From NCBI GenBank assembly GCA_026014745.1, contig JAOZHS010000001.1:682001-746000 (forward strand): DNA of 64,000 nucleotides. Reading direction: 5' to 3'. The stretch comes from Candidatus Bathyarchaeota archaeon (lineage in GTDB: Archaea; Thermoproteota; Bathyarchaeia; Bathyarchaeales; Bathycorpusculaceae). The translations under genes were made by a program, and so were the position numbers. The notes below the pieces were generated by a model. The model made no database searches and was not told where the DNA came from. It saw only the letters and a list, made by a program, of their open reading frames with translations. How positions within the stretch are numbered: position 1 is the stretch's first letter; each line of letters starts with the position of its first letter. Below, one piece after another: positions 6,789 to 52,449 of the stretch.

Positions 6789-8278
<1,490 letters not shown>

Positions 8279-8343
8279 AAGAAAAAAACAAGTTTCAAGC
8301 AAACGAAGCTTGCTGGAGGAGCAAGGAGAGCATGAATACCAAG

Positions 8344-8365
8344 CTCTGTACGTCAAAGCCCAATT
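8344..8365 (+). other. 3' strand of the pre-16S processing stem
   Basis: This 22-nt trailer stretch, starting CTCTGTACGTC and ending CCCAATT, is the partner of 6659-6680. It marks the transcript as continuing at least 90 nt past the mature 16S end. Confidence 0.8.
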
Positions 8366-8709
8366 AACACAGCAATCAAGTAGCACCCAACGGGTTTCAA
8401 AACATTTCTTAATTTTAAAGTTTATAGATAGTTTTCTATTGGTGTCTCTCTCTGTGAGGGGTATCCCTTACATTCTTTGTCAGTAGATCACTTGTTGTTT
8501 TTGTCTTTGTGTGGATGTGGTTGTTTTACGGTTGCCACAAGTTAGTTGTTGGTTTGGGTTGTTTTTTGGGTTTGGTTTGTGTTTTGAGGTCTGATTGGTT
8601 GTTGCATAACAATATTCTACCACACGTCCAACATGGAGGCATGTTGAAGAAGTCGTCGTGTGAGTGTGGGGTTATGTATGGATTGTTTTTTTCTCCACAA
8701 GAAGTAACA
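8366..8709. other. Gene-free spacer after the 16S unit
   Basis: The stretch contains T-rich sequence near 8400-8430 that may end the rRNA transcript, and a G/T-biased block at 8490-8590. The only frame (8509-8754) is low-complexity and unconvincing. No tRNA, 23S or 5S sequence is seen. Confidence 0.5.
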
Positions 8710-9639
8710 TCAAGGCACGACCTTTCTTTTAGAATTTACAGGTATTTTTCTTAAAGTTAGGACTATCACAAGCCCTATAACAAAAATAACAAAAACTAAA
8801 CTTGCTTCAAGTGCGCAATAAGGTGTCTCTAAGGCTTGCACGTTAAAATAGAGTCTTTCTGACGTTCCGGTATGTCCGAATTGGTTTATGGCAGATAGGG
8901 TGATATTATGGTTGCCATTCGATAAGTTGTGTAACGTTAGGTTACTATCTGCTGGGCTGCTTTTTCCATTGTCCAATACATACGCCATCTTGGTGACTAA
9001 TCGGTCAACAGTAAAGTTCAGAGACAAATCTGAGCAAGTCAAGTTAATATTTTGAGGCGTAAGAAGTCTAATTGAAGGCTTAGAAGGAATTATGCTTACG
9101 TTTTCATTGTGGACTATGGAGAAAACCGACGGGTTAGCAGAAACAGTGAAGGTGATTGTGGCCTCCTGGTCCACTGAGAAAGTTCGATCAGTATAGTTGC
9201 TGCTGCCGAAGTAGCCTCCGCCAGCGTGGGCTTTAAAGGTTAATTTGTGTGTTCCATATGGTATATTGTCAATAGTAAAGTTGTATTGCATGAAATGCTT
9301 CCCGTCTGTGAAGTCTTTATCATAAAAGTAGGATTGACCACTAGGATTAGGACACCACTCCTCTGCTTGCATCCAATCCCCCTGATAGACGGTAACTGCG
9401 AGCCCCCGACATAAGTTATTTGTATCCACTAGATGCACTGAAAAGCAAACCACCATTGTGCCATTCGGGGAAATGTCTCTCTTTTGCGGGGAATCGAAAA
9501 AGAAAACTATCGCTATATCATTGGGCGCATCTACAGTTATGGAGGGCTGAAAATTGGGATTAGCCCCCACAGGTTCAGTAAACAGCAAAATAACCCCGAG
9601 AATGGCTACAGCGCCGTAAGGTAACAATTTCCGTTTCAT
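8710..9639 (-). CDS. Secreted, membrane-anchored surface protein with Ig-like domains
   Basis: The 309-residue protein has an N-terminal signal segment (about 6-26, after MKRK), two beta-rich regions (about 35-150 and 185-265) and a C-terminal membrane anchor (about 278-298) followed by KRK. It has many N-glycosylation sequons (NGT, NFT, NYT, NLT, NHN-like). The second region (NITLSAINQFGHTGTSERLYF) looks like an Ig-type fold of the kind found in archaeal cell-surface proteins. No specific family is recognised. It is transcribed towards the 16S gene and divergently from the kinase gene. Confidence 0.7.
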   Translation of the reverse strand: MKRKLLPYGAVAILGVILLFTEPVGANPNFQPSITVDAPNDIAIVFFFDSPQKRDISPNGTMVVCFSVHLVDTNNLCRGLAVTVYQGDWMQAEEWCPNPSGQSYFYDKDFTDGKHFMQYNFTIDNIPYGTHKLTFKAHAGGGYFGSSNYTDRTFSVDQEATITFTVSANPSVFSIVHNENVSIIPSKPSIRLLTPQNINLTCSDLSLNFTVDRLVTKMAYVLDNGKSSPADSNLTLHNLSNGNHNITLSAINQFGHTGTSERLYFNVQALETPYCALEASLVFVIFVIGLVIVLTLRKIPVNSKRKVVP

Positions 9640-9790
9640 ATTACCTATTGAGCTGATAGCGGGCTGTCACCTTATTAGGTTTTGCAGCTAAGCCTCTTGG
9701 CTAAGCGTTATATGTCGGTGATATTTGGTTCAGTGTCTGAAGTGTGAAGTTGCCTATCTACTTATTTTGGGTATGTAGTCTGGATGCATA

Positions 9791-11731
9791 ATGCTCTTAA
9801 CCCATTGGTCACCAAACTGTTTTTGTGAACTATCTTTGAGCCTGCACGAAGACTTGCCCATAGATGCGTCAATGCCTTCCGAAACCGCGTTTCCTGACAA
9901 ATACCGAAACTTGTTTGATAATATGCTTGATGGATTCGTGTTTGGTAAAGTCCTCTATAACTGTAAAGGTGAAGCCGTAGATTTTGTTCTGTTCCAAGTT
10001 AACAAGGCGTTTGAGCGTCTTACAGGCTTAACCAAAAAGCAGGTTCAAAATCGCAGAATAAGTGCGTCAATCCCCAATATCCACGTTATTAACCCTGAGT
10101 TGCTAAAGATTCATGCTCGGGTGGCTTTGAATGGGCGGGGCGAAAAATTTGAGATTTACTTGGAGGCGCTACAAAAATGGCTGTTTATCTCGATTTATAG
10201 CCCTAAAAAAACCTATTTCATAAGCCACTTCGAAAACATAACTGAACGAAAAGCCAACGAAGCTCTGCTCAAGAGTAGTATGGAGCGGTTCATGACGTTG
10301 GCGGATTCACTGCCCGAGGTAGTCTTTGAAACAGACCTTTCTGGCAAACTCACCTATGTTAATCGGATCGCTTTTGAATTAACTGGGTTTACGCATGATG
10401 AATATACCGCGCTTAAGCATTCTTTTGAAATGTTTATAGCGCCAAGAGATCGTGAACGTGCAAAAGCAAACTTTGCAGCCTCAATACAAACGGGGAGTTC
10501 AAGCACCCAAGAGTATTGGATGCTACGGAAAGATGGCTCTGAATTTCCCGCAGTCGTCAAGAGCATTCCTGTTTTTACTGAGGGCCACTTGGTAGGCATA
10601 CGCGGAATAATTATTGATGTCACAGAAACCAAGAAAACTATGGATAAGTTGGCTTTTCAGGCGCAGCTGCTGGAATCTGTTGGGCAAGCAGTTATCGCGG
10701 TGGATAAAGAGACTGTGGTACGTTACTGGAACCGCGGCGCTGCCAAGCTTTACGGTTGGTCTGAATCTGATGCAGTGGGGAAATGCCTCAACGAATTGGT
10801 CACTGAATCTTATCCAGAAGAGCCTTACTTAGTCTACTCTCACCTGAGTGCTGGAGAGACTTGGTCTGGCGAAATTCAAGCTCAACTCCGTGACGGCTCC
10901 GTTGCTCCCCTGATTGTTAATCGCTATCCCGTCATGGTCGAGAACGATGAGTTCATCGGATTCATCAGCATCTACACCGACATCACCGAACAGAAAGCAT
11001 TAGAATACAAACTCGCAGATTATGTGGATGCGTTGGCGGACTCGTCAGAAAAAATCAACGACCTAAACGATAAGCTCCTTGTTGTCGGCAGCTTAACCCG
11101 CCACGACATACGCAACAAACTCTCCGCCTTCAATGGCTTAATGTATCTGATGAAGAAAAGAATCTTGGACAACCCTGACGCTTTAGATAAGCTTGCTGAA
11201 ATGCAGAAAGTGCTAAAGCAGCTGCTAGATATTTTGGAGTTCCAAAAAGTGTATGAACTGGTAGGTTCTGAGCAGTTGACTTTTGTGGGCGTTGGCGCCT
11301 TCTTTAATGAAGCGGTTGAGTTGCTTTCTGATTCAAAGGGGCTGCAGATTGATTTTAAATGTGAAGGCTTAGAAGTGCTGGCAGATTCGTTGCTCCGGCA
11401 GGTAATTTATAATCTCATTGATAACACCCTAAAATATGGAGAAAAAGCCACGGCGATTCATCTTTACTGCCAAAAAGATCACGAGGATTTGTTATTGATT
11501 TATGAAGATAACGGGCAGGGAATAAGCGATGAGGAACGGCAGCATCTATTTGAGAAGGGCTTTGGCAAAGGCACCGGACTTGGGCTTTACATGATTAAGA
11601 GGATTGTGACGACGTATGGGTGGCTTTTGGAAGAAAAGGGTGCCTTTGGCGTCGGCGTCCGTTTTGTCATGAAGATTCCTGCGGGCGGTTATCGTTTTTG
11701 TCCGCAGTGCTCCGCATCATCCACCGCTTAA
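9791..11731 (+). CDS. PAS-domain sensor histidine kinase
   Basis: The 646-residue protein has three PAS domains (about 35-150, 163-275, 288-400), a short coiled linker, a phosphoacceptor helix with His438 in SLTRHDIRNKLSAF, and a HATPase domain with the N box near 540 (YNLIDNTLKYG) and G boxes EDNGQGISD and GKGTGLGLYMIKRI. No transmembrane segment is apparent, so it is a cytoplasmic sensor, with the signal probably read by the PAS domains. It ends in an FCPQC pair. No response regulator is adjacent. The start is uncertain: ATG 9872 (MPSETAFPDKY), just before the first PAS domain, is a reasonable alternative. Confidence 0.9.
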   Translation: MLLTHWSPNCFCELSLSLHEDLPIDASMPSETAFPDKYRNLFDNMLDGFVFGKVLYNCKGEAVDFVLFQVNKAFERLTGLTKKQVQNRRISASIPNIHVINPELLKIHARVALNGRGEKFEIYLEALQKWLFISIYSPKKTYFISHFENITERKANEALLKSSMERFMTLADSLPEVVFETDLSGKLTYVNRIAFELTGFTHDEYTALKHSFEMFIAPRDRERAKANFAASIQTGSSSTQEYWMLRKDGSEFPAVVKSIPVFTEGHLVGIRGIIIDVTETKKTMDKLAFQAQLLESVGQAVIAVDKETVVRYWNRGAAKLYGWSESDAVGKCLNELVTESYPEEPYLVYSHLSAGETWSGEIQAQLRDGSVAPLIVNRYPVMVENDEFIGFISIYTDITEQKALEYKLADYVDALADSSEKINDLNDKLLVVGSLTRHDIRNKLSAFNGLMYLMKKRILDNPDALDKLAEMQKVLKQLLDILEFQKVYELVGSEQLTFVGVGAFFNEAVELLSDSKGLQIDFKCEGLEVLADSLLRQVIYNLIDNTLKYGEKATAIHLYCQKDHEDLLLIYEDNGQGISDEERQHLFEKGFGKGTGLGLYMIKRIVTTYGWLLEEKGAFGVGVRFVMKIPAGGYRFCPQCSASSTA

Positions 11732-11803
11732 GCCCAAAGCGTGGGCATCAAGCGTTGAGACTATAAATAAGCAAGCCATACTCTCCCACAGGAGAGACAC
11801 CGT

Positions 11804-12118
11804 TTGCAGCTTGAAGAGATGAAAAAAGAAATCGAAGCCCTCGTCATCGCCAAAGGCTTCTACAACAAACCCGAAGACATCCCCAAAAAACTCCTCTTCG
11901 CCTTCATCGAACTCGGCGAAGCCAGCGACGCATGGAAAAAGGGTCTTGGAGAAGAAAAAATTGCGGAGGAACTCATCGATGTCATCTTTTACATTCTTGA
12001 TGCCAGCCGTTTGGCTTGCCCGAACATGAATATGGATGAGGTCTTCGCCAAAAAGTTGGCTAAGAATCTTGGGCGCCCCTACCAATATGGCGAGGGACAT
12101 CGCAATCAACAGCCCTAA
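11804..12118 (+). CDS. MazG-like nucleotide pyrophosphohydrolase
   Basis: The 104-residue all-alpha protein carries the MazG metal-binding signature: ELGEASDAW (E-x2-E) around residue 36, then EELIDVIFYILD (E-x2-D) around 55. This family hydrolyses NTPs or dNTPs to NMP and pyrophosphate and is used for pool clean-up. TTG 11804 follows an AGGAGAG ribosome site; ATG 11819 is an alternative. It lies between the kinase and the cysteine-cluster gene on the same strand. Confidence 0.75.
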   Translation: MQLEEMKKEIEALVIAKGFYNKPEDIPKKLLFAFIELGEASDAWKKGLGEEKIAEELIDVIFYILDASRLACPNMNMDEVFAKKLAKNLGRPYQYGEGHRNQQP

Positions 12119-12171
12119 TTGCTGTTTTTTCTGCTAAACTTTTATTTTTCCCTGTCTCTAAATGTTGCACG

Positions 12172-12609
12172 TTGACCACTGTGGATTTCACCTATCCCCC
12201 TGACTTAAATTTCGAATGCAACGGCTGCGGACTCTGCTGCGGCGACACCCCCCAAAAAACCCGACACGTTCTGCTCTTAGAATCTGAAGCCCAAACAATC
12301 GCGGCGGAAACAGGATTACCCATTGCGTCTTTTGCAAAAACCGTCACCGACAAAAAACCCTACGTATACGAGATGGAGAAACCCCTGAATGGTCGATGTT
12401 TCTTTTTGGATGCAGAAAACCGATGCCGCATATACGCTCATAGACCGCTAATTTGTCACTTTTACCCTTTCCAGTTAACTTTCTCAGCGGACCAGAATTG
12501 TTATGTTTTCGCGGTAACCCCAGAGTGCCCCACCGTAGGTAAAGGTCGGCATCTGACAAAGAAGGATTTTGAGGCGCTGTTTGCGTTGGCGTCTGCGCGT
12601 TTGCCCTAA
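12172..12609 (+). CDS. YkgJ-family cysteine cluster protein
   Basis: The 145-residue protein has the YkgJ/UPF0153 pattern: CNGCGLCCGDTP near the N-terminus (residues about 16-27), CFFLDAENRCRIYAHRPLIC in the middle and a further Cys in TPECP. The clustered cysteines are thought to bind zinc or an Fe-S centre; the role of the family is not established. The start is TTG 12172. Its 3' end overlaps the convergent pyrI gene by 4 bp. Confidence 0.8.
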   Translation: MTTVDFTYPPDLNFECNGCGLCCGDTPQKTRHVLLLESEAQTIAAETGLPIASFAKTVTDKKPYVYEMEKPLNGRCFFLDAENRCRIYAHRPLICHFYPFQLTFSADQNCYVFAVTPECPTVGKGRHLTKKDFEALFALASARLP

Positions 12610-13070
12610 ATCTGGGACAGCACGTCGGCTTGTTCGACCGTGACGCCGCAGTAGTGGCACTTTAGCACCATGGGTTCTTGTTGTTTGACGTGGAATTTGG
12701 TGTGTATGGGTTCGTGGCTGTTGCTTATGCAGCAGGGGTTAGCGCATTTTACGATGCCTTCCACTGATGGGGGCAGTTTCACCTCTAGTTTTTCGACGAC
12801 GCAATAGTCGTGGATTATGTTGATGGATGCGTGGGGCGCGACTAAGGCGATGCGGTTGACTTCTTGGGGACTGAGTGCTTTGCCCTCGATTTTGACTATG
12901 TCTTTGACGCCGAATCGGTGGCTGGGGACATTGATAGCGATGGTCATTACCCGCTTTTCTTTGCCTGTTATGCCAAGTATTTTGACGACATCTAGGGCGT
13001 AGCCGCCGCGGATATGGTCGATGACTGTTCCGTCTTTGATTTTTGATACTCGAAGTTCCTTTTCACTCAT
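12606..13070 (-). CDS. pyrI: Aspartate carbamoyltransferase regulatory chain
   Basis: The 154-residue protein matches PyrI in length and layout: an allosteric domain (1-100) that includes the DHIRGGYALDVVKILG block, then a zinc domain with Cys109, Cys114, Cys138 and Cys141, the same spacing as the E. coli protein. PyrI binds CTP/ATP and controls the PyrB catalytic trimer in pyrimidine synthesis. In archaea pyrI is normally next to pyrB; no pyrB is adjacent here, and the only carbamoyltransferase-family gene in the window is at 50.6 kb. It is convergent with the upstream YkgJ gene. Confidence 0.93.
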   Translation of the reverse strand: MSEKELRVSKIKDGTVIDHIRGGYALDVVKILGITGKEKRVMTIAINVPSHRFGVKDIVKIEGKALSPQEVNRIALVAPHASINIIHDYCVVEKLEVKLPPSVEGIVKCANPCCISNSHEPIHTKFHVKQQEPMVLKCHYCGVTVEQADVLSQI

Positions 13071-13128
13071 GCCTGTGCCTCAAGAAGCCTAGTGCTTATG
13101 CTACAGAAAAATATTACTAAAAAAATAG

Positions 13129-13860
13129 TTAAGGATGTGCTCGAGGCGGCGACCTTAAAGTGATGACGGTTGTTCCCGCAAACTTGTCAAAGTATCGCAT
13201 GAACGTGCAGTTCCTTATGCGCCACCCAACCAACAAATCAAACGGAAGAAGCGGGAGGACTTTGCCAAAGTTCCGCACGGCTGCGTGGTCGTAGGACATT
13301 TTTTTGCCGTCTGTGCGCACCACTTTTAGGCCCATGATGCGTTTGCCTATGCTTTGCCCGTTGAAGCCCTCCAGTAGCGTGGAGTAGACCCATTGGAGCC
13401 CGATGGTTATCAAGAGGATGGTACTGGCGCTGTTGTCAAGGAATTCTGAGACGGAGATGGACATGATTTCGGGCAGGACGGTGATGGCTACGGTTATCGC
13501 TAGGATGAAGGTGAAGTCTATGAAGAATGCGGTGATGCGGCTTTTTATGGATGCTACGGGTAGAGTGCTGGCTTTGCCTTGGACGTCTGCGGCTTCTGCC
13601 CAGCCTTCTACGTCGTGGATGACGCGGACGGCGCTTTCGCCTGCTCGACTGAGGCGGTATTTGCCGGTTGGGGTTTGTTCTATGAAGGGGGCGAGGGAGC
13701 GAAGGTGGAAGCTGAGTTTTCCGGTGTCGACTTTGAGTAGGTTGAGTAGGTCGGTGAAGGAGGATTCGGTGTTGTTGCTGAGGTTGAGTAGGATTTCCCT
13801 GCGTAGTGGGTGGGATAGGACGGAGAGGACTTTGGAGACGTTGCCTTGATCTACTGCCAT
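13129..13860 (-). CDS. Membrane-bound regulator: winged-helix (ArsR-like) domain fused to RDD domain
   Basis: The 243-residue protein begins with an ArsR-like winged helix (about 8-80: VLSHPLRREILLNL, TGKLSFHLRSL, KYRLSRAGE). It then has an RDD-type membrane domain (about 103-230) with two transmembrane helices and the family motifs KSRITAFFIDF, GQSIGKRIMGLKVV and YDHAAVRNFGKVLPLLP. RDD proteins are small membrane proteins, some linked to transport. The fusion suggests a membrane-tethered regulator that reads a membrane signal. It runs in the same direction as pyrI, 58 bp upstream of it, and divergently from rio2. Confidence 0.75.
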   Translation of the reverse strand: MAVDQGNVSKVLSVLSHPLRREILLNLSNNTESSFTDLLNLLKVDTGKLSFHLRSLAPFIEQTPTGKYRLSRAGESAVRVIHDVEGWAEAADVQGKASTLPVASIKSRITAFFIDFTFILAITVAITVLPEIMSISVSEFLDNSASTILLITIGLQWVYSTLLEGFNGQSIGKRIMGLKVVRTDGKKMSYDHAAVRNFGKVLPLLPFDLLVGWRIRNCTFMRYFDKFAGTTVITLRSPPRAHP

Positions 13861-14021
13861 GTCTATAACCGTGGTTCACTAATTATGATATCTTTTAGAT
13901 GAATAGATTTTGTATAGCCCATCATAAACACGGTTCTCCCATATAAGTCCAACCCAAAAAACGCAAAAAACCCGTCAAGAACCCAATTCTTAATAGACCA
14001 AATAACCTACTAAAAACCCAC

Positions 14022-14921
14022 ATGTCAAGCGCCGACGCAGCCGTACAAGTATACCGCCAACTCGAAAGCGAAGACTTCCGAATCCTAAACATAATCGAAG
14101 CAGCCATGGCAAAACACGAATACGTCCCCAAAGAACAAATCCAAAAATACGCCAAAGTCCCCATGGACCGCATCGATTATACACTGGGCAAACTCAACAA
14201 ACTCGGCCTAACTATGCGCACCCAAGAAACCTACAACGGCCACACTCTCAACTACGCAGGCTACGACTGCCTAGCCATAAACGCCCTAGTCAAAGCCGAC
14301 ATCATCCGTTCCTTTGGACAAACCCTCGGCGTGGGCAAAGAAGCCGACGTCTACGACGCTCTCAGCCCCACAGGCAGGCGCATAGCCGTCAAATTCCACC
14401 GCCTTGGCAGAATCAGTTTTCGCCAGACCCGCCGCAAACGAGGCTACACTCGCGAACACAGCACTTGGCTGTTTCAATCCCACCTTGCCGCTGAACGTGA
14501 ATACCAAGCCCTCAAACTCGTTTATGATATGGGCGTAGCGGTGCCGGAGCCTATTAGCCAAAACCGTCACGTTATCGCTATGGGCATGATTGAAGGGGGT
14601 CAGCTGGTTCAGTACATAGACATCGGTGACCCAAAGAATGTGTTGCGCGAGATTTTGCGTAACGTCAAAAAAGCCTACCGAAAAGCCAACATAATACATG
14701 GCGACCTCAGTGAATACAATATTATTTTGCAACCGGATGGGCATATTCTAATTATTGATTGGCCGCAGGCCGTTAAAACTGACCATGTAAACGCGGCTGA
14801 GTTGTTAGAGCGTGACCTCAAGAACGTCTTGAATTATTTTAGCCGAAAATTCGGCATAGAATTAACTATCCAGAATGCCTATGCATATGTGACTGGAGAA
14901 GCTAGACGCTTACCCGTTTAG
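14022..14921 (+). CDS. rio2: RIO2 family serine protein kinase/ATPase
   Basis: The 299-residue protein has the RIO2 layout: an N-terminal winged helix (about 10-85), then a minimal kinase domain with P-loop GVGKEADVY (103-111), Lys124, catalytic loop HGDLSEYN (227-234; Asp228, Asn233) and metal-binding Asp246 in IDWPQ. RIO2 acts in late maturation of the small ribosomal subunit. It overlaps the convergent Lsm gene by 4 bp. Flanking genes for RNA binding (Lsm) and tRNA charging (gatDE) fit a translation neighbourhood. Confidence 0.93.
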   Translation: MSSADAAVQVYRQLESEDFRILNIIEAAMAKHEYVPKEQIQKYAKVPMDRIDYTLGKLNKLGLTMRTQETYNGHTLNYAGYDCLAINALVKADIIRSFGQTLGVGKEADVYDALSPTGRRIAVKFHRLGRISFRQTRRKRGYTREHSTWLFQSHLAAEREYQALKLVYDMGVAVPEPISQNRHVIAMGMIEGGQLVQYIDIGDPKNVLREILRNVKKAYRKANIIHGDLSEYNIILQPDGHILIIDWPQAVKTDHVNAAELLERDLKNVLNYFSRKFGIELTIQNAYAYVTGEARRLPV

Positions 14922-15163
14922 TGCTTGTTGGCGTCAAGCACGATATAGAGTATGTTGTTGCCGCGAAGGAGCACGTTGCCATAGTTTGTCATTAGTTGAT
15001 CTTCTTTACATTCTGTGGCGCCTTCAAGGAGAAGGTTCATGTGGCCATCGCATTTTATCATTTTGCCCTTGTACTCATAGCCATTTTTTAGGACAACTTC
15101 GATGTTACCGTGCAACTGTTTAATGAGAACGTTTAGTGGTTTTTTACTTGGTTCCATCATCAT
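14918..15163 (-). CDS. Sm-like (LSm) RNA-binding protein
   Basis: The 81-residue protein shows both Sm motifs: Sm1 (VVLKNGYEYKGKMIKCDGHM then NLLLEG) and Sm2 (NVLLRGNNILYIVLD). Archaeal Sm-like proteins form heptameric rings that bind U-rich RNA. It is convergent with rio2, sharing 4 bp at the stops. Upstream, 210 bp separate it from the next same-strand gene, so it has its own promoter. Confidence 0.92.
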   Translation of the reverse strand: MMMEPSKKPLNVLIKQLHGNIEVVLKNGYEYKGKMIKCDGHMNLLLEGATECKEDQLMTNYGNVLLRGNNILYIVLDANKH

Positions 15164-15374
15164 TGGTGATTCCTGCCGAATCTTGTAATATCCATGAACC
15201 CCCTACCAGATATAAAAGCCTTATGAAAAACCAGTAAGGTTAATTTAACAAAAAAGGTTTTCATCTCTTTAAAAATAGGTTTATTTGAGAAAAATGGGGC
15301 TAAAAATTGCTTTTGTTCAAATCACCTGTCTAAATTGGGTTGTTTCAGGGAAAAGCGTTGAATTTGCGCTTTAC

Positions 15375-15620
15375 TTACAGCTTAGCGATTAGTGATAATG
15401 CGGCTACTACCAGAAACGCTACGCCCGTCCAGAAAAGGTCGCCGCCAGTAAGGAAGTACACGATGATGGCAACTATTGCGGCTGGAATCAAAACCAAGAA
15501 CAGCCTGATGAAAACAATTATGATTATCCCGATAATGACCAGAACTATCAGCGCAATTAAAGAGAGACCTATGTCGCCCAAAACCGACAAAACAATTGGA
15601 AAAAGGACACTATTGTCCAT
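15375..15620 (-). CDS. Small hydrophobic membrane protein
   Basis: The 81-residue protein is almost entirely hydrophobic, with two or three membrane segments and no charged domain. A single Asp-Ile-Gly near 16 and a TGGDLFW loop are the only polar features. No family is recognised. It lies between the Lsm gene and a conserved unknown gene on the same strand. Confidence 0.55.
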   Translation of the reverse strand: MDNSVLFPIVLSVLGDIGLSLIALIVLVIIGIIIIVFIRLFLVLIPAAIVAIIVYFLTGGDLFWTGVAFLVVAALSLIAKL

Positions 15621-15699
15621 AAGAAAACCTTCAAAGAACCAAGACTGCGCGTTGGTAATAAGGTTTTTTGCATTACCTCGCCAACGGAAGCTAAGCGGT

Positions 15700-16170
15700 T
15701 TAGCTCATTTTGCCTCGAATTTTAGAGAGCACATCCTCTTCTACCCACTTCTCGCCCTGAATGGTAAGTTTAAACTCGGGTTTGCTTGGGTCAGGCTTGA
15801 AAACTTGGCCGCGTTTGGTCATTTCGTTGAGGCGCGCAGGCACCATGCTCTTTATGCCGCTGGATTCCAGTAACTTCTGCACTTGCGCTGCCGTGTTTTT
15901 CTTGTCATCCGATGCGTACAAAATCAATCCGACATCCTCGTAATGGGTGAGTTTTTCGCGGGTTACAATCACGGGCCCCTCGGTGGTTGGTTCGACGATG
16001 CCTTTGAGTTGAGCGCCTGAGGGGGTCAAGCGGTTAGAAACGAAATCGCCTAGTTTTTCCACAAAGTCTTCGGGGACACTTTGCAGCATGTCAAGTATTT
16101 CTTGGGGGGTTTGACCTTCGATGACTACTTCGCCAAAGGGGGTTTTGATGCGGGCTTCGATGCGTTTCAT
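15700..16170 (-). CDS. Conserved hypothetical protein, possible winged helix
   Basis: The 156-residue soluble protein has an N-terminal strand-rich part (MKRIEARIKTPFGEVVIEG) followed by a short helical EILDMLQ segment. The C-terminal half (about 75-150) has the pattern of a winged helix: ASDDKKNTAAQVQKLLESSG, then ARLNEMTKRGQVF and a FKLTIQGEKWVEE wing. I recognise no named family. The ATG at 16170 is preferred over the upstream start at 16227 because an AAGAGG ribosome site precedes it. It follows gatE by 72 bp on the same strand and may belong to the gatE transcript. Confidence 0.6.
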   Translation of the reverse strand: MKRIEARIKTPFGEVVIEGQTPQEILDMLQSVPEDFVEKLGDFVSNRLTPSGAQLKGIVEPTTEGPVIVTREKLTHYEDVGLILYASDDKKNTAAQVQKLLESSGIKSMVPARLNEMTKRGQVFKPDPSKPEFKLTIQGEKWVEEDVLSKIRGKMS

Positions 16171-16241
16171 AGTGGTTGCCTCTTTATGGGTATAGCTGGC
16201 GCTGATAGCTTTTAGGATTTGCGGCAAAAAATAAAGGTAGG

Positions 16242-18140
16242 TTAGTTGAGCCGCTCTTTGAGGAGTTTGCTGACGAGTTCAGGGTTGGCTTTACCGCGAA
16301 CTTCCTTCATTGCAGCGCCCATCAGCATGCCAAACGCGCCCTTGCCCAGTTTTTCGATTTGGGCTTTATTGGATGCGACGATCCGGTCAATTATGGGCGC
16401 CAAATCCGCTTCAGTGAACATCTTAAGACCTAAAGCTGCGGTGGCATCTGCTACGGTTTTGCCTTCGTTCTTTGATAGCCAACTGAATACGTCTGCGGTG
16501 GCTTCTTTGGCGAGTTCTCCTGCACCGACTGCTGCAAAGATTGCGCTGATTTGTTCGTCGGTGACGTTTTCAGTTGGAACGCCGTCGCGTTTGAGTGCCT
16601 TCACGGTTTCGGTTAGAAACGCAGCAATGGTTGAGGCGGGTGTACCGCTGGCTTTGGCTGTTTCTTCAAAGATGGTGATGTATTCGGAGTCGATGAGTTG
16701 CTTGGCGAGTTTTTCGTTGAGGCTGTATTCTTTGATGAGGCGGGTTAGTTTTTTGTCTGCTGGTTCGGGTAGGTTGGCTTTGATTTGTTGCACGAGTTCT
16801 TCCGTGATGGCCTGCGAGGGGATGTCAGTTTCGGGGTACATGCGGGCTGCTCCCGGTCGGGGACGCATATAGCGTGTTGTACCGTCGTCTTTGGCGGTAC
16901 GCGTCTCCTGCGGGACACCTGTACAGGCAACTTGTGCCCGGTCAACCACAGCTTTCAAGGCGTCGTGAGTGTTTTCAGCTGTATCAGCTACGAAAACCAC
17001 TGCGTCGCCTTCGCTGGCGCCAACTAATTCCCGCAAGGCTTTTACCTCTTCGGGGGTGATGCCATAATTTGCTAGTACTTCGTCGGTGTGGAATATGCCG
17101 CCGACTCTGCCCCAGAATTTGGCGTAATCCGATAGTTCGCTGCCTAAACGGAAGCCTGGCATAAGTTCGCGTCCCGTTAAGCCGTTGAAGCCTGAGAGTT
17201 TGACGGCGAGGACTTTTTGCTTTTTGTCCACAGCTTTGCGGATGACTTTGCTTTTGGTTGCTTGGAATAGTTTTGTGACGTCAACGAACTCTGCTTTTAG
17301 TGAGGTGGGGGTGATGCCTCTTTTTGCGAGTTCTTCTTTGATTGCAACCAGGTTTAGTTGACGTTGAACCTCGTAATCGACGACTGTTGAGATTAATTCA
17401 AGTTCCTGTACGCCTTTAATTTCGATAAGGGTTCCGTTGGGTATAGAGACGTTGAGGTCTTGGCGAATCGTACCCAAGCCACGCATGACCTTGCCTGTGT
17501 CGCGGAGTATTCTGCCGATGGCAAACGCGACTTCTTGCGCTTCTTGAGGCGAGTAGATGACGGGTGCGGTGGCGACTTCGATAAGTGGAATGCCTAATCG
17601 GTCGATGCGGTAACGGATGGTTTTGCCCTCATCCTGAGTCCCAGTTTTGCGGGCTGCATCCTCCTCAAGGAAGGCTGCCTGCATGGGAATGGTTTTTTCG
17701 CCGACTTTAATCCAGCCGTCAAGAGCAAGGGTGCATGTGCGCTGGAAGCCAGTGGTGTTGCTGCCGTCGATGACGGTTTTGCGCATGACGTGCACTTCGT
17801 CGACGGGTTGCATATTCATCATCAAAGAGGCGGTGAGGACAACTTTGACGGCGTCTATGTTGATTGGGTGGGGTGGTTCTTCATCCATTTCGACTAGGCA
17901 AGAGCTTTTGTGGTTAGCTTCATAGAGAATGCGCACGCCTTTTTGGAACTCAAAGTATGCTGCAGGATCCACCTGTCCCAACTCGCTCTGAGTCGGTCGA
18001 AGGCGTCGGAGAAAGGTGATTTCGGGTTCTTCTTTGAAGAGTTCAGGGGGGCAACTGCAGAAGAGTTTGCTGTTTACGTTCAGTTGCTGGTGGATTTCTA
18101 AGCCGACTTTTAAGCCGACTTTGACATAGTCGATGGTCAT
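16242..18140 (-). CDS. gatE: Glu-tRNA(Gln) amidotransferase subunit E
   Basis: The 632-residue protein matches archaeal GatE, with the GLKVGLEIHQQLNVNSKLFC opening, the FLEEDAARK and SNTTGFQRT blocks of the GatB/E cradle domain, an inserted AspRS-like domain (about 280-410) and a C-terminal helical YqeY-like tail. With GatD it converts Glu-tRNA(Gln) into Gln-tRNA(Gln) using ammonia released by GatD, a route found only in archaea. Its ATG overlaps the gatD stop as ATGA, indicating coupled translation, and an AAGGAG site precedes it. Confidence 0.97.
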   Translation of the reverse strand: MTIDYVKVGLKVGLEIHQQLNVNSKLFCSCPPELFKEEPEITFLRRLRPTQSELGQVDPAAYFEFQKGVRILYEANHKSSCLVEMDEEPPHPINIDAVKVVLTASLMMNMQPVDEVHVMRKTVIDGSNTTGFQRTCTLALDGWIKVGEKTIPMQAAFLEEDAARKTGTQDEGKTIRYRIDRLGIPLIEVATAPVIYSPQEAQEVAFAIGRILRDTGKVMRGLGTIRQDLNVSIPNGTLIEIKGVQELELISTVVDYEVQRQLNLVAIKEELAKRGITPTSLKAEFVDVTKLFQATKSKVIRKAVDKKQKVLAVKLSGFNGLTGRELMPGFRLGSELSDYAKFWGRVGGIFHTDEVLANYGITPEEVKALRELVGASEGDAVVFVADTAENTHDALKAVVDRAQVACTGVPQETRTAKDDGTTRYMRPRPGAARMYPETDIPSQAITEELVQQIKANLPEPADKKLTRLIKEYSLNEKLAKQLIDSEYITIFEETAKASGTPASTIAAFLTETVKALKRDGVPTENVTDEQISAIFAAVGAGELAKEATADVFSWLSKNEGKTVADATAALGLKMFTEADLAPIIDRIVASNKAQIEKLGKGAFGMLMGAAMKEVRGKANPELVSKLLKERLN

Positions 18141-48920: not shown

Positions 48921-50264
48921 TTGGATTACCTACCAGTTGCTGCGTTAGCCGTGTTTGGGGGGACGCTGTTTTTGATGATTCGGCGTCCACATGGATTGCG
49001 GTTAGGGTACGCGGCGGGCATTGGAGCAGCAGCCTCGCTTTTACTTGGAACAGTCACACTTGGACAGGCGGCGCAGTCGTTTTTGACGATTTGGGATGCT
49101 GCGCTGGCGTTTTTGGGTATTGTGGCGTTGTCGGTGGTTTTGGATGCGTTGGGCTTCTTTAAATGGGCGGCGCTTCGCGTAGTGCAATTGGCAGGCGGCA
49201 GCGGGCTTAAGCTTTACTTCTACGTAACGCTACTCACAGCCGTCGTCAGCATCCTATTCGCCAACGACAGCGCCGTCCTCATCTTAATCCCCATTGTGCT
49301 TGAAATCGTAAGCTGCCTAAACATCGACGCCAAAGGCAAACTCGCCTACCTCTTCAGCGCAGGCTTAATCGCCGACACCGCCGCAATGCCGCTCATAACC
49401 AGTAACCCCATAAACATCCTTAGCGCCGACTTCTTCGGGTACACCTTTTTGGATCACCTCAAATTTATGGCTCCCATCGCAGTCGCAACCATCTCAACCA
49501 GCATCCTCATCGTCTACCTCTTCTTCCGCAAGGGCATCCCTAAAGCCTACAACCCCGCCGCAGCCGACCAATTAACTCAAGACAAACAGTTAATTTCGCC
49601 CGCTCTGCTGCGAGTCTGTTTTGGAGTGCTGGTGGCGGTAGATGTGGGTTACGTTTTGACTTCACTTTGGAGGTTGCCTGTTTCTTTGGTGATTTGTAGC
49701 GGAGCCGCCTTTTTGGGGGCAGTTTATTGGGTTTCGTTGAAGCGCCACGGAGGCGTGAATGGCCAAAAGAAGGGGCTCTTTGGATTGGCGCGTGAGATTA
49801 ACTGGGATATTTTGCTCTTTATGCTCTGCATATTCCTTGTCGTGCAAGGGCTAGAAACGGTAGGCGTCACCAACATTGTAGCCTCGGCGCTTCAAGCCAG
49901 CAGCCAGCTTCCAGCAGTGTTGGGGATTTTTGGACCCAGCATGGTGGTCACCGTTGGCGCCAGCTTCCTAAATAATTGGCCCATGACGATTCTTGGGATG
50001 CTAAGTATCCAACATCTCGGCGCCTCAGGCACACAGCTAACTGGGCTAGTTTTCAGCAATGTTATTGGAAACAATTTGGGACCGCACTTTTTCCCGTTGG
50101 GCTCGCTGGCGATTTTAATGTGGCTAGAAACGATGCGGCGGCGGGGCGTCAACATTAGCCTCAAACAGTACCTAAAAGTGGGCGCCGTCGTCTCCATCGT
50201 GGAGGTTGCTGTGGCGTCGCTGGTGCTTTGGGCGGAGTTGACTTTGGGGTTCACGTTATTCTGA
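48921..50264 (+). CDS. ArsB/NhaD-type anion or arsenite permease
   Basis: The 447-residue protein has about 11 TMs and the ArsB/IT-superfamily pattern: LFANDSAVLILIPIVLEI, LIADTAAMPLITSNPINILS, FLNNWPMTILGML and LVFSNVIGNNLGPHFFPLGS. The NDS and NNLGP blocks are typical of arsenite efflux permeases. No arsA or arsR is adjacent, so the transported ion is inferred from the family only. The start is TTG 48921. Confidence 0.82.
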   Translation: MDYLPVAALAVFGGTLFLMIRRPHGLRLGYAAGIGAAASLLLGTVTLGQAAQSFLTIWDAALAFLGIVALSVVLDALGFFKWAALRVVQLAGGSGLKLYFYVTLLTAVVSILFANDSAVLILIPIVLEIVSCLNIDAKGKLAYLFSAGLIADTAAMPLITSNPINILSADFFGYTFLDHLKFMAPIAVATISTSILIVYLFFRKGIPKAYNPAAADQLTQDKQLISPALLRVCFGVLVAVDVGYVLTSLWRLPVSLVICSGAAFLGAVYWVSLKRHGGVNGQKKGLFGLAREINWDILLFMLCIFLVVQGLETVGVTNIVASALQASSQLPAVLGIFGPSMVVTVGASFLNNWPMTILGMLSIQHLGASGTQLTGLVFSNVIGNNLGPHFFPLGSLAILMWLETMRRRGVNISLKQYLKVGAVVSIVEVAVASLVLWAELTLGFTLF

Positions 50265-50618: not shown

Positions 50619-51527
50619 CTACTTCATGAGTGTAAGCATTATGGCTTTGGCGGAGTAAAGACGGTTTTCAGCCTGCTCATAAATCACCGATTTGGGGCTG
50701 GCGATAGCCTCTGGGCTGATTTCGTAACCTCGATGGATGGGCATGTCATGCATAACGTATGCGTCGGTGCCCTCGAGCAGTTCTGCGTTGATTTGGTAGG
50801 GCATCATCAGTTTGAGGCGGCGTTCCTTCTCGTCGGCGAATTTGGGGTCCGTGAAGAACTCCATATCAATCCATGTGTCAGTATAAACGAAATCCGCGTC
50901 CGCAACTGCATCTTTGACGTCAAGGGTGGATTGCCAGAGCCCAGATTTCTTGGCTTCCGCAAGTAACTCCTCGTCTTTTGCAGCTGCATTAGTGATTGGG
51001 GTTACTGTGGTGAGTTTTACGCCTGTTTTGGTGCAGGCTTCAATAAGCGAGTTAGTCACGTTGTTGTGAACGCCGATATAGACCAACTTGGTGCCTTTGA
51101 GTTTGCCATGTTTCTCTTTGATGGTTATTAAATCTGCCAGTGCCTGACTAGGATGATACATGTCATCGCAGCCGTTGATGACGGGCACACGGGACGCAGC
51201 CGCCATTTTGCGCAGGTCACTGTTGTAGAGGAGCCGCGCCATGATGCAGTCCACGTTGCGGGATAAGTAGCCGATTTCGTCGCCTATGTCGGCAAGCGTG
51301 AAGTTGCTGCTTCGCCAATCCATGTATAGTCCGTGGCCGCCGAGTTGGGTCATGGCGACTTCAAAAGAGACGCGGGTGCGTGTGGAGGTCTTTTGGAAAA
51401 CTAAAGCGGCGGTTTTGCCCTTTTGGGTTTTGGCATACTTTTTGGGGTTGAGTTTGGTGTCTATGGCTAAGTCTACTATGGCGTTGAGGTCTTTGCCGCT
51501 TTGTTCTTTGAAGTTTAGTAGATGCAT
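50619..51527 (-). CDS. Ornithine carbamoyltransferase-family protein with altered substrate loops
   Basis: The 302-residue protein has the full carbamoyl-phosphate site (STRTR at 48-52, HPSQ at 125-128, VPVINGCDD) and overall OTCase length. The amino-acid side differs from OTCase: D-x3-SMG reads DTWIDME (217-223), with Asp221 for Ser, and the ornithine-binding HCLP reads HDMP (260-263), with Asp261 for Cys. I infer a divergent archaeal OTCase or a transcarbamylase for another amine. The symbol argF would overstate the evidence. It stands alone, divergent from dtd2. Confidence 0.8.
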   Translation of the reverse strand: MHLLNFKEQSGKDLNAIVDLAIDTKLNPKKYAKTQKGKTAALVFQKTSTRTRVSFEVAMTQLGGHGLYMDWRSSNFTLADIGDEIGYLSRNVDCIMARLLYNSDLRKMAAASRVPVINGCDDMYHPSQALADLITIKEKHGKLKGTKLVYIGVHNNVTNSLIEACTKTGVKLTTVTPITNAAAKDEELLAEAKKSGLWQSTLDVKDAVADADFVYTDTWIDMEFFTDPKFADEKERRLKLMMPYQINAELLEGTDAYVMHDMPIHRGYEISPEAIASPKSVIYEQAENRLYSAKAIMLTLMK

Positions 51528-51624
51528 TTTGCGTCCTCAGTACGGTTGAATCAGCCATGCCATAATAAGCTTTATGCAAAAACTTTTTTCACCTCAATGC
51601 TTAACCACAATAAGGAAACCGAAC

Positions 51625-52449
51625 ATGATATTGCTGGTCTCTTCTAACAAGGATATTGCAAGCCAAACAATCAAACAACAAATCCTCACCCAATACCCCT
51701 TCATAGAAACCTCCCAAACCTTCCAACAAAACCCCACCTACGCCGCGGAGTTTAACGGCAAAGACGTAACCCTCATAACTTTGGCGGAAGAATCAGTCCG
51801 TGCGCAGTATCTCCCCGAACAGTTCCCAAACTCTGAACTCGTCGTTTTCATCTCTCGACATAGTAGCCAAAGCGGCACACCCACTCTAACTGTCCATACT
51901 CCCGGAAACTTTGGCGACGCAGAACTCGGCGGATTACCCAAAACCGTTTCCGTCGCGCCTGCCTACGCGATGCAAACCGCCCTCAAAGTTCTCTTTCAAT
52001 GCAAAGAACACTTCCGCCTAAACCACGAAGTCAGTTACGAAGTCACCCATCATGGCCCCAGTCTAAGTGTCCCCACCATGTTTGTGGAGTTGGGTAGCAG
52101 TGAGGCTCAATGGCGCGATGAGGTGGCGGCGAAAGCGGTTGCCCACGCTGCGATGGCGGCGATTGCTGGTTTTGAAAAACCTCGCGCATCAGCAGTGATG
52201 GGGATTGGTGGGACACATTACAATCAGAAATTTACTTTGATGGCGTTGATGGGGCAAGCCGTTTTTGGACACATGATTCCCAAATATGCGGTTTCGTTGA
52301 CAGATGAGGCAATCGTGCGGCAGTGCATGGAGCGGACGTTGGAGCGTGTGCCGTTGGCTTTGTTGGATTGGAAAGGCATCAAAAGCGAGGACAAACCAGA
52401 CCTTCTGGCGGCGTTGGAGGCGGCTGGGTTGCCCTACAATAAAGTGTAG
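51625..52449 (+). CDS. dtdA: D-aminoacyl-tRNA deacylase (archaeal DTD2/GEK1)
   Basis: The 274-residue protein starts MILLVSSNKDIASQTIKQQI and carries the DTD2 blocks LVVFISRHSSQSGTPTLTVH then TPGNF, EVTHHGPSL and GIGGTHYNQKF. It removes D-amino acids (and some modified ones) from tRNA. ATG 51625 lies after AAGGA; the longer start at 51574 adds residues unlike the family. It is upstream of secE on the same strand, with a gap of 111 bp. Confidence 0.93.
   Translation: MILLVSSNKDIASQTIKQQILTQYPFIETSQTFQQNPTYAAEFNGKDVTLITLAEESVRAQYLPEQFPNSELVVFISRHSSQSGTPTLTVHTPGNFGDAELGGLPKTVSVAPAYAMQTALKVLFQCKEHFRLNHEVSYEVTHHGPSLSVPTMFVELGSSEAQWRDEVAAKAVAHAAMAAIAGFEKPRASAVMGIGGTHYNQKFTLMALMGQAVFGHMIPKYAVSLTDEAIVRQCMERTLERVPLALLDWKGIKSEDKPDLLAALEAAGLPYNKV

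Follow-up and report, generated by a model that had tools for sequence, protein, structure and literature searches.

The window analyzed here, a 64,000-nucleotide stretch of a Bathyarchaeota genome, carries on its minus strand a gene (50619..51527; an open frame running from 51527 down to 50619, ATG to TAG) for a 302-amino-acid carbamoyltransferase that we read, with a probability of roughly 0.8, as an ornithine carbamoyltransferase (OTCase; ArgF/ArcB, EC 2.1.3.3) of a distinct subtype, the DME type, sharing the reaction and fold of other OTCases and presumably using ornithine as its substrate. On this reading it is a new subtype of OTCase and not a new activity; an enzyme with a different substrate is unlikely. 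The motifs DxxxSMG and HCLP serve as diagnostics for OTCase, and since the DME clade breaks both, motif-based annotation would misread it. The clade apparently fills the OTCase role in a major lineage of sediment archaea and in several bacterial phyla, and it provides a natural test of what the serine of SMG and the cysteine of HCLP contribute.

Family assignment and fold

The window protein comprises both carbamoyltransferase domains (Pfam PF02729 and PF00185). Its best NCBIfam model is PRK14804/NF011379, "ornithine carbamoyltransferase" (375.6 bits, cut-off 373), and it falls under the cut-offs of the general OTCase models, one of them marginally. PRK14804 is also the best model for the DME members L004, L044, L060 and L080 and for a protein from a P. 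megaterium plasmid, while several DME members score under its cut-off. The DME type is an OTCase subtype that is sharply delimited and widely distributed, in a family that NCBI already names OTCase, although PRK14804/NF011379 is an annotation name only; a literature search on this family found no paper naming the model. An AlphaFold model built with 33 homologues in the input has high confidence, with a pLDDT of 95.2, and can be superposed on OTCases at a TM score of about 0.9, showing the two-domain OTCase fold of an unknotted carbamoyltransferase. The closest solved structures are OTCases, that of P. furiosus coming first by sequence, and none of the structures matched by sequence or by structure is of a homologue with the DME motif.

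Among features of the transcarbamylase superfamily, STRT and HPSQ are present and the HxLP motif appears as HDMP. Two OTCase traits, a place in the OTCase branch and a lysine two residues before STRT, are found as well; the OTCase motifs themselves are not, with DxxxDME standing for DxxxSMG in 117 of 117 homologues (D and M kept) and HDMP for HCLP, a motif of most OTCases. Because the published DxxxSMG diagnostic places the protein outside canonical OTCases, we call it a subtype. Other members of the superfamily were considered and rejected on motifs, profile scores and the tree. The knotted enzymes (AOTCase, SOTCase and YgeW) have a proline-rich loop, an extended 120's loop and a lysine starting the 240's loop, all absent here, and their NCBIfam models score far below cut-off. 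The (T/S)RWQ(TT/SM)G and HDLP motifs of DPTCase and DBTCase are lacking, the Asp of HDxP being the only point in common. The RxQxER motif of aspartate carbamoyltransferase (ATCase) is also absent, and the ATCase of the genome is a separate gene (L126).

Active-site motifs

The initial annotation had described the carbamoyl-phosphate side as standard, which holds for STRT, R98 and HPxQ: FQKTSTRT lies at residues 44-51 (51375..51398, minus strand) and HPSQ at residues 125-128 (51144..51155, minus strand). That side is nevertheless not wholly standard, since the clade has lost QLGRGE(T/S) and the Asp of GDGNN. In alignment with canonical OTCases, the 80's loop (residues 71-84, WRSSNFTLADIGDE; 51276..51317, minus strand) no longer contains QLGRGE(T/S), in the place of which the clade has NFxLAD, and the canonical GDGNN is replaced by GVHNN (residues 152-156; 51060..51074, minus strand), or G(V/I)HNN across the clade. 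The NN pair is retained, N155 and N156 being invariant across 117 distinct homologues. K46 (51390-51392, minus strand) corresponds to the OTCase lysine that precedes STRT and pairs with the carboxylate of ornithine, and that is absent from putrescine enzymes, which have Gln there (PMC3282769). It is kept in all 116 distinct homologues with letters at that position.

On the ornithine side, DTWIDMEFF (residues 217-225; 50853..50879, minus strand) replaces DxxxSMG and HDMP (residues 260-263; 50739..50750, minus strand) replaces HCLP. The two acidic substitutions first reported, D221 for the Ser of SMG (codon GAT, 50865-50867, minus strand) and D261 for the Cys of HCLP (codon GAC, 50745-50747, minus strand), were borne out against the OTCases of P. 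furiosus and B. anthracis and in further alignments. The description of the SMG replacement needs correction beyond the change of Ser to Asp: Met is kept, the Gly is also changed (to Glu), and the loop exceeds its usual length by about six residues. The homologue alignment that had been proposed as a check places Asp at residue 221 in 117 of 117 distinct homologues. D217, W219, D221, M222, E223 and F225 are all identical in these 117, which can be put down neither to chance nor to sequencing error. Residue 261 is less constant (Asp in 81 of 116 homologues, Cys in 35), with Asp restricted to one clade and HCLP present in 34 clade members.

The first homologue set came from a collection scan (110 relatives, 80 kept) partly seeded with two peptide patterns, DTWIDMEF and DAYVMHDM, and motif invariance in that set is biased accordingly. 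An order-wide search by whole-protein similarity, in which no motif was seeded, found the same motif at every DME-range locus read. It returned two separated groups, one at 59-100% identity (the DME type) and one at about 36-48% (canonical OTCases and one other). Within the DME type, genes L178, L179 and L184 and their kin (families f7 and f4) replace N75 of the 80's loop by Gln and F224 by Leu (DMELF); these variants occur in lineages that mostly lack CPS and bear carbamate kinase. We also noted a carbamoyltransferase (L201; G049:C1, locus 7082-8044) with HPGP for HCLP and no SMG-like loop.

Phylogeny and distribution

In a tree of 60 rows, the DME type forms one clade of 40 rows with 100/100 support, placed inside the OTCase set on a stem measuring 0.93 changes per site and standing apart from ATCases and from knotted-type rows. 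Two basal bacterial groups combine the DME loop with an ordinary HCLP, and HDMP arises once, in a clade (100/98) of Bathyarchaeia and five bacterial sequences. It follows that the change of Ser to Asp came first and that of Cys to Asp later, so that the two were not one coordinated switch. This succession bears on whether the enzyme carbamoylates a diamino acid shorter than ornithine, 2,3-diaminopropionate or 2,4-diaminobutyrate, as the Asp for Cys of HCLP might hint: HDLP is a hallmark of DPTCase and DBTCase (PMC4581275), and the window protein has HDMP. We regard this as highly improbable, because the basal half of the clade has the same DME loop with an ordinary HCLP, because DPTCase and DBTCase have T/S for the D of DxxxSMG whereas D217 is invariant in the DME clade, and because a specialized antibiotic precursor would be an unexpected purpose for a core gene that almost all genomes of the order carry.

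The proposal of a new archaeal OTCase subtype survives as to the subtype, which has its own long stem and full support, but not as to an archaeal restriction, for several bacterial phyla carry it. In the collection scan, relatives from Bathyarchaeia are 63-83% identical to the window protein; beyond them, at 50-55% identity, are sequences from Latescibacterota, Gemmatimonadota, Poribacteria, single unassigned bacteria, one genome of the Myxococcota/Deltaproteobacteria, and two Paenibacillus. A plasmid-borne relative in P. megaterium (L212; NZ_CP085446.1), with both DME and HDMP, heads a probable phosphonate-peptide cluster (7995-16683) that includes two ATP-grasp genes resembling L-amino-acid ligases, a TPP decarboxylase gene in split form, and genes for a luciferase-like oxidoreductase and for PEP mutase. 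By analogy, this carbamoyltransferase could supply citrulline or act as a self-resistance OTCase. ArgK is such a self-resistance OTCase, for phaseolotoxin.

Host arginine pathway and substrate

At 97.5% completeness, the 2.7 Mb genome of the host has argG-argH-carA-carB in one row and, in another, lysW-lysX-lysY-lysZ-lysJ-lysK, a set capable of ornithine synthesis. The only other carbamoyltransferase found in it is an ATCase, and there is no second OTCase; without the DME gene, the arginine pathway of the host would therefore lack one step, and only one. In most of the 33 genomes reached via homologues, the DME gene and ATCase are likewise the only family members, and argG is over cut-off in 28 of these 33 DME-carrying genomes. 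Three bacteria have a canonical OTCase in addition to the DME gene, which counts against our main reading; these exceptions are two Paenibacillus, with a canonical argF next to argG besides the DME gene, and one unassigned bacterium with four members of the family. A literature search on bathyarchaeal arginine metabolism found nothing direct.

From the two acidic replacements, the initial annotation had suggested a different, perhaps more positively charged substrate. The evidence does not support this, as K46, N155, N156, D217 and M222 are invariant and the enzyme is the only candidate in the host for the step from ornithine to citrulline. In OTCases, the amino-acid head of ornithine is gripped by an Asn, by the Asp of DxxxSMG and by the Ser and Met that adjoin it (PMC4581275). 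All known residues of this kind are invariant in the clade except the replaced Ser, which is now a second acid beside D217. Their retention is consistent with an amino acid whose α-amine and carboxylate are free, and argues against both putrescine and N-blocked ornithine.

Could the acids instead accommodate a second free amine, as in a putrescine-type carbamoyltransferase that phosphorolyses N-carbamoylputrescine derived from agmatine? The acidic pocket and the persistence of the gene without argGH would suit such an enzyme, as would agmatine deiminase-like and N-carbamoylputrescine amidase-like genes near pyrB in the argGH-less congener G076 (L221; G076:C17, 1484-3513), for which these are the best models, both under their cut-offs. 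We consider it very unlikely nonetheless: K46 is present where putrescine carbamoyltransferases have Gln, the (Y/W)(G/W)(V/L/I)x motif and the C-terminal extension of about 20 residues are missing, the TIGR04384 score is 209.8 against a cut-off of 500, and the host arginine pathway would be stripped of its OTCase. That N-acetyl-, N-succinyl- or LysW-bound ornithine is carbamoylated seems exceedingly improbable. The host presumably makes ornithine on LysW, and the acetylornithine and succinylornithine enzymes set a precedent for blocked substrates, but the clade belongs among OTCases and lies away from the knotted-type rows, D217, which binds the α-amine, is retained and joined by a second acid, the host encodes a LysK-like hydrolase that would release ornithine, and the DME gene is retained in 32 genomes without LysY. 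Ornithine is the likeliest substrate.

Genomic neighborhood

The gene for DtdA, a D-aminoacyl-tRNA deacylase (PF04414) outside the pathway, is divergently transcribed beside the DME gene (51574..52449, plus strand), and dtdA adjoins it in 84 of 98 bathyarchaeal loci. The flanks are strongly conserved, with dtdA, Spt5/NusG, L11, L1 and L10 to one side and, opposite them, SRP54 and ribosomal genes. No arginine gene adjoins the DME gene, the neighbors of which are translation genes. Since the neighborhood is identical with and without argGH, it shows vertical inheritance only and is no guide to function. In the window, an ArsB/CitMHS-type permease gene (48921-50264, plus strand; a Pfam ArsB match under the NCBIfam ArsB cut-offs) adjoins the DME gene. 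In five bathyarchaeal loci (L160, L166, L167, L190 and L192), the DME gene is followed directly, on its own strand, by a gene that by eye resembles speD (S-adenosylmethionine or arginine decarboxylase family).

Gene content across the order and a possible reverse role

Among 93 genomes of the window's order with completeness of 90% or more, 86 have the DME type, six have a canonical OTCase, none has both and one has neither. The genes argG and argH are always found together, in 52 genomes (argG of G036 being split between contigs), all of which have CPS and LysY; the full set of argGH, CPS and LysY accompanies the DME gene in 46. Of the 41 genomes without argGH, 40 keep the DME gene, whose presence there arginine synthesis does not explain; this counts against a plain ArgF reading. 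Both CPS and LysY are absent from 27 of these 40, single-contig assemblies included. Many lineages of the order have lost argG, argH, CPS and LysY together, while ATCase and the DME gene stay.

Where we read the pyrB neighborhood, in ten of these 27 genomes, pyrB was present in all ten and adjoined by pyrI in nine, with pyrI confirmed by profile in three. Carbamoyl phosphate is still needed in such genomes. A search of the 93 genomes with a chimeric query of two proteins, carbamate kinase and arginine deiminase, detected carbamate kinase, with limited sensitivity, in nine genomes, eight of them among the 27 without CPS, and gave no match to arginine deiminase, a weak negative. In the CPS-less 27, the DME enzyme is the one detected possible maker of carbamoyl phosphate, besides carbamate kinase in eight. 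By analogy with Thermococcus, we tentatively suggest that in about 27 sampled bathyarchaeial genomes lacking CPS, ArgG, ArgH and LysY but retaining ATCase, the DME enzyme might be the main maker of carbamoyl phosphate, through phosphorolysis of citrulline. The direction of the reaction, anabolic in the host and reversed in relatives without argGH and CPS, is put forward just as tentatively. The pattern of gene loss thereby makes a testable claim on the source of carbamoyl phosphate for pyrimidines in CPS-less Bathyarchaeia.

A stronger version would make phosphorolysis of citrulline, as a source of carbamoyl phosphate or ATP, the main job of the enzyme everywhere, the host included, with the same substrate and with the motifs marking a catabolic OTCase. 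Retention of the gene in 40 argGH-less genomes, 27 of them without CPS, is what such an enzyme would predict. We judge it improbable, however, because CarAB, ArgG, ArgH and ornithine synthesis of the LysW type are all encoded in the host, carbamate kinase and arginine deiminase were not detected there, 46 genomes carry the full set, and argG is present in most bacteria that have the basal form. An anabolic OTCase in the host remains the better reading.

In one genome, two further divergent carbamoyltransferase-like genes (L202; G124:C2:34000-45000) share a short region with a second carbamate kinase (G124:C2:42762-43685), which suggests a catabolic carbamoyltransferase locus.

Proposed mechanism

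As in other unknotted OTCases, a trimer would bind carbamoyl phosphate through STRT, R98 and HPxQ, and the 240's (SMG) loop would close over ornithine. The carbamoyl group could then move to the δ-amine of ornithine to yield citrulline and phosphate, or the reverse. Homology would place the two extra acids around D217, the putative holder of the ornithine α-amine. On the simplest reading of the sequence, D221 probably replaces the Ser contact, taking over its hydrogen bond to the α-amine. D261 may add to that contact, as has been proposed for the Asp of HDLP in diamino-acid carbamoyltransferases (PMC4581275). The lengthened SMG loop and the altered 80's loop would retune closure rather than specificity. 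In the window organism, the enzyme would supply citrulline to ArgG and ArgH, and in relatives without argGH, CPS and the LysW ornithine pathway, phosphorolysis of citrulline could provide carbamoyl phosphate for ATCase.

Comparison with known systems

The window enzyme resembles P. furiosus OTCase (ArgF; PDB 1A1S, 1PVV) in fold, length, STRT, HPxQ, the OTCase lysine, the D of DxxxSMG, the NN pair, HxxP and the QAENR end, with about 41% identity in the structure match. It differs in having DME and a longer loop for SMG, NFxLAD for QLGRGE, G(V/I)HNN for GDGNN, and HDMPIHRGYE for HCLPAHRGEE. With diaminopropionate and diaminobutyrate carbamoyltransferases it shares the Asp for the Cys of HCLP; these enzymes lack the D of DxxxSMG, which the window enzyme keeps. 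Putrescine carbamoyltransferase from E. faecalis (PDB 4A8H) is similar in its unknotted fold and altered 230's/SMG loop, but its Gln in the place of K46, its YGL motif and its C-terminal helix are all absent from the window enzyme.

For the reverse role, the nearest comparison is with Thermococcus kodakarensis, which lacks CPS, argG and argH and in which growth without pyrimidines is severely impaired when arcE or arcB is deleted but hardly affected when arcC is (PMC13260591). There, arginine synthetase (ArcE) turns arginine into citrulline, from which OTCase makes carbamoyl phosphate (PMC13260591). Like ArcB, the DME enzyme is kept along with ATCase in genomes without CPS, ArgG and ArgH, and CPS is linked with argGH. 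Unlike ArcB, it is of the DME type in sequence and belongs to a different archaeal class. The likeness concerns OTCase, ATCase, CPS, ArgG and ArgH. If the parallel is true, the arginine-derived route to carbamoyl phosphate known from Thermococcus would extend to a second large archaeal group, with a retuned active site.
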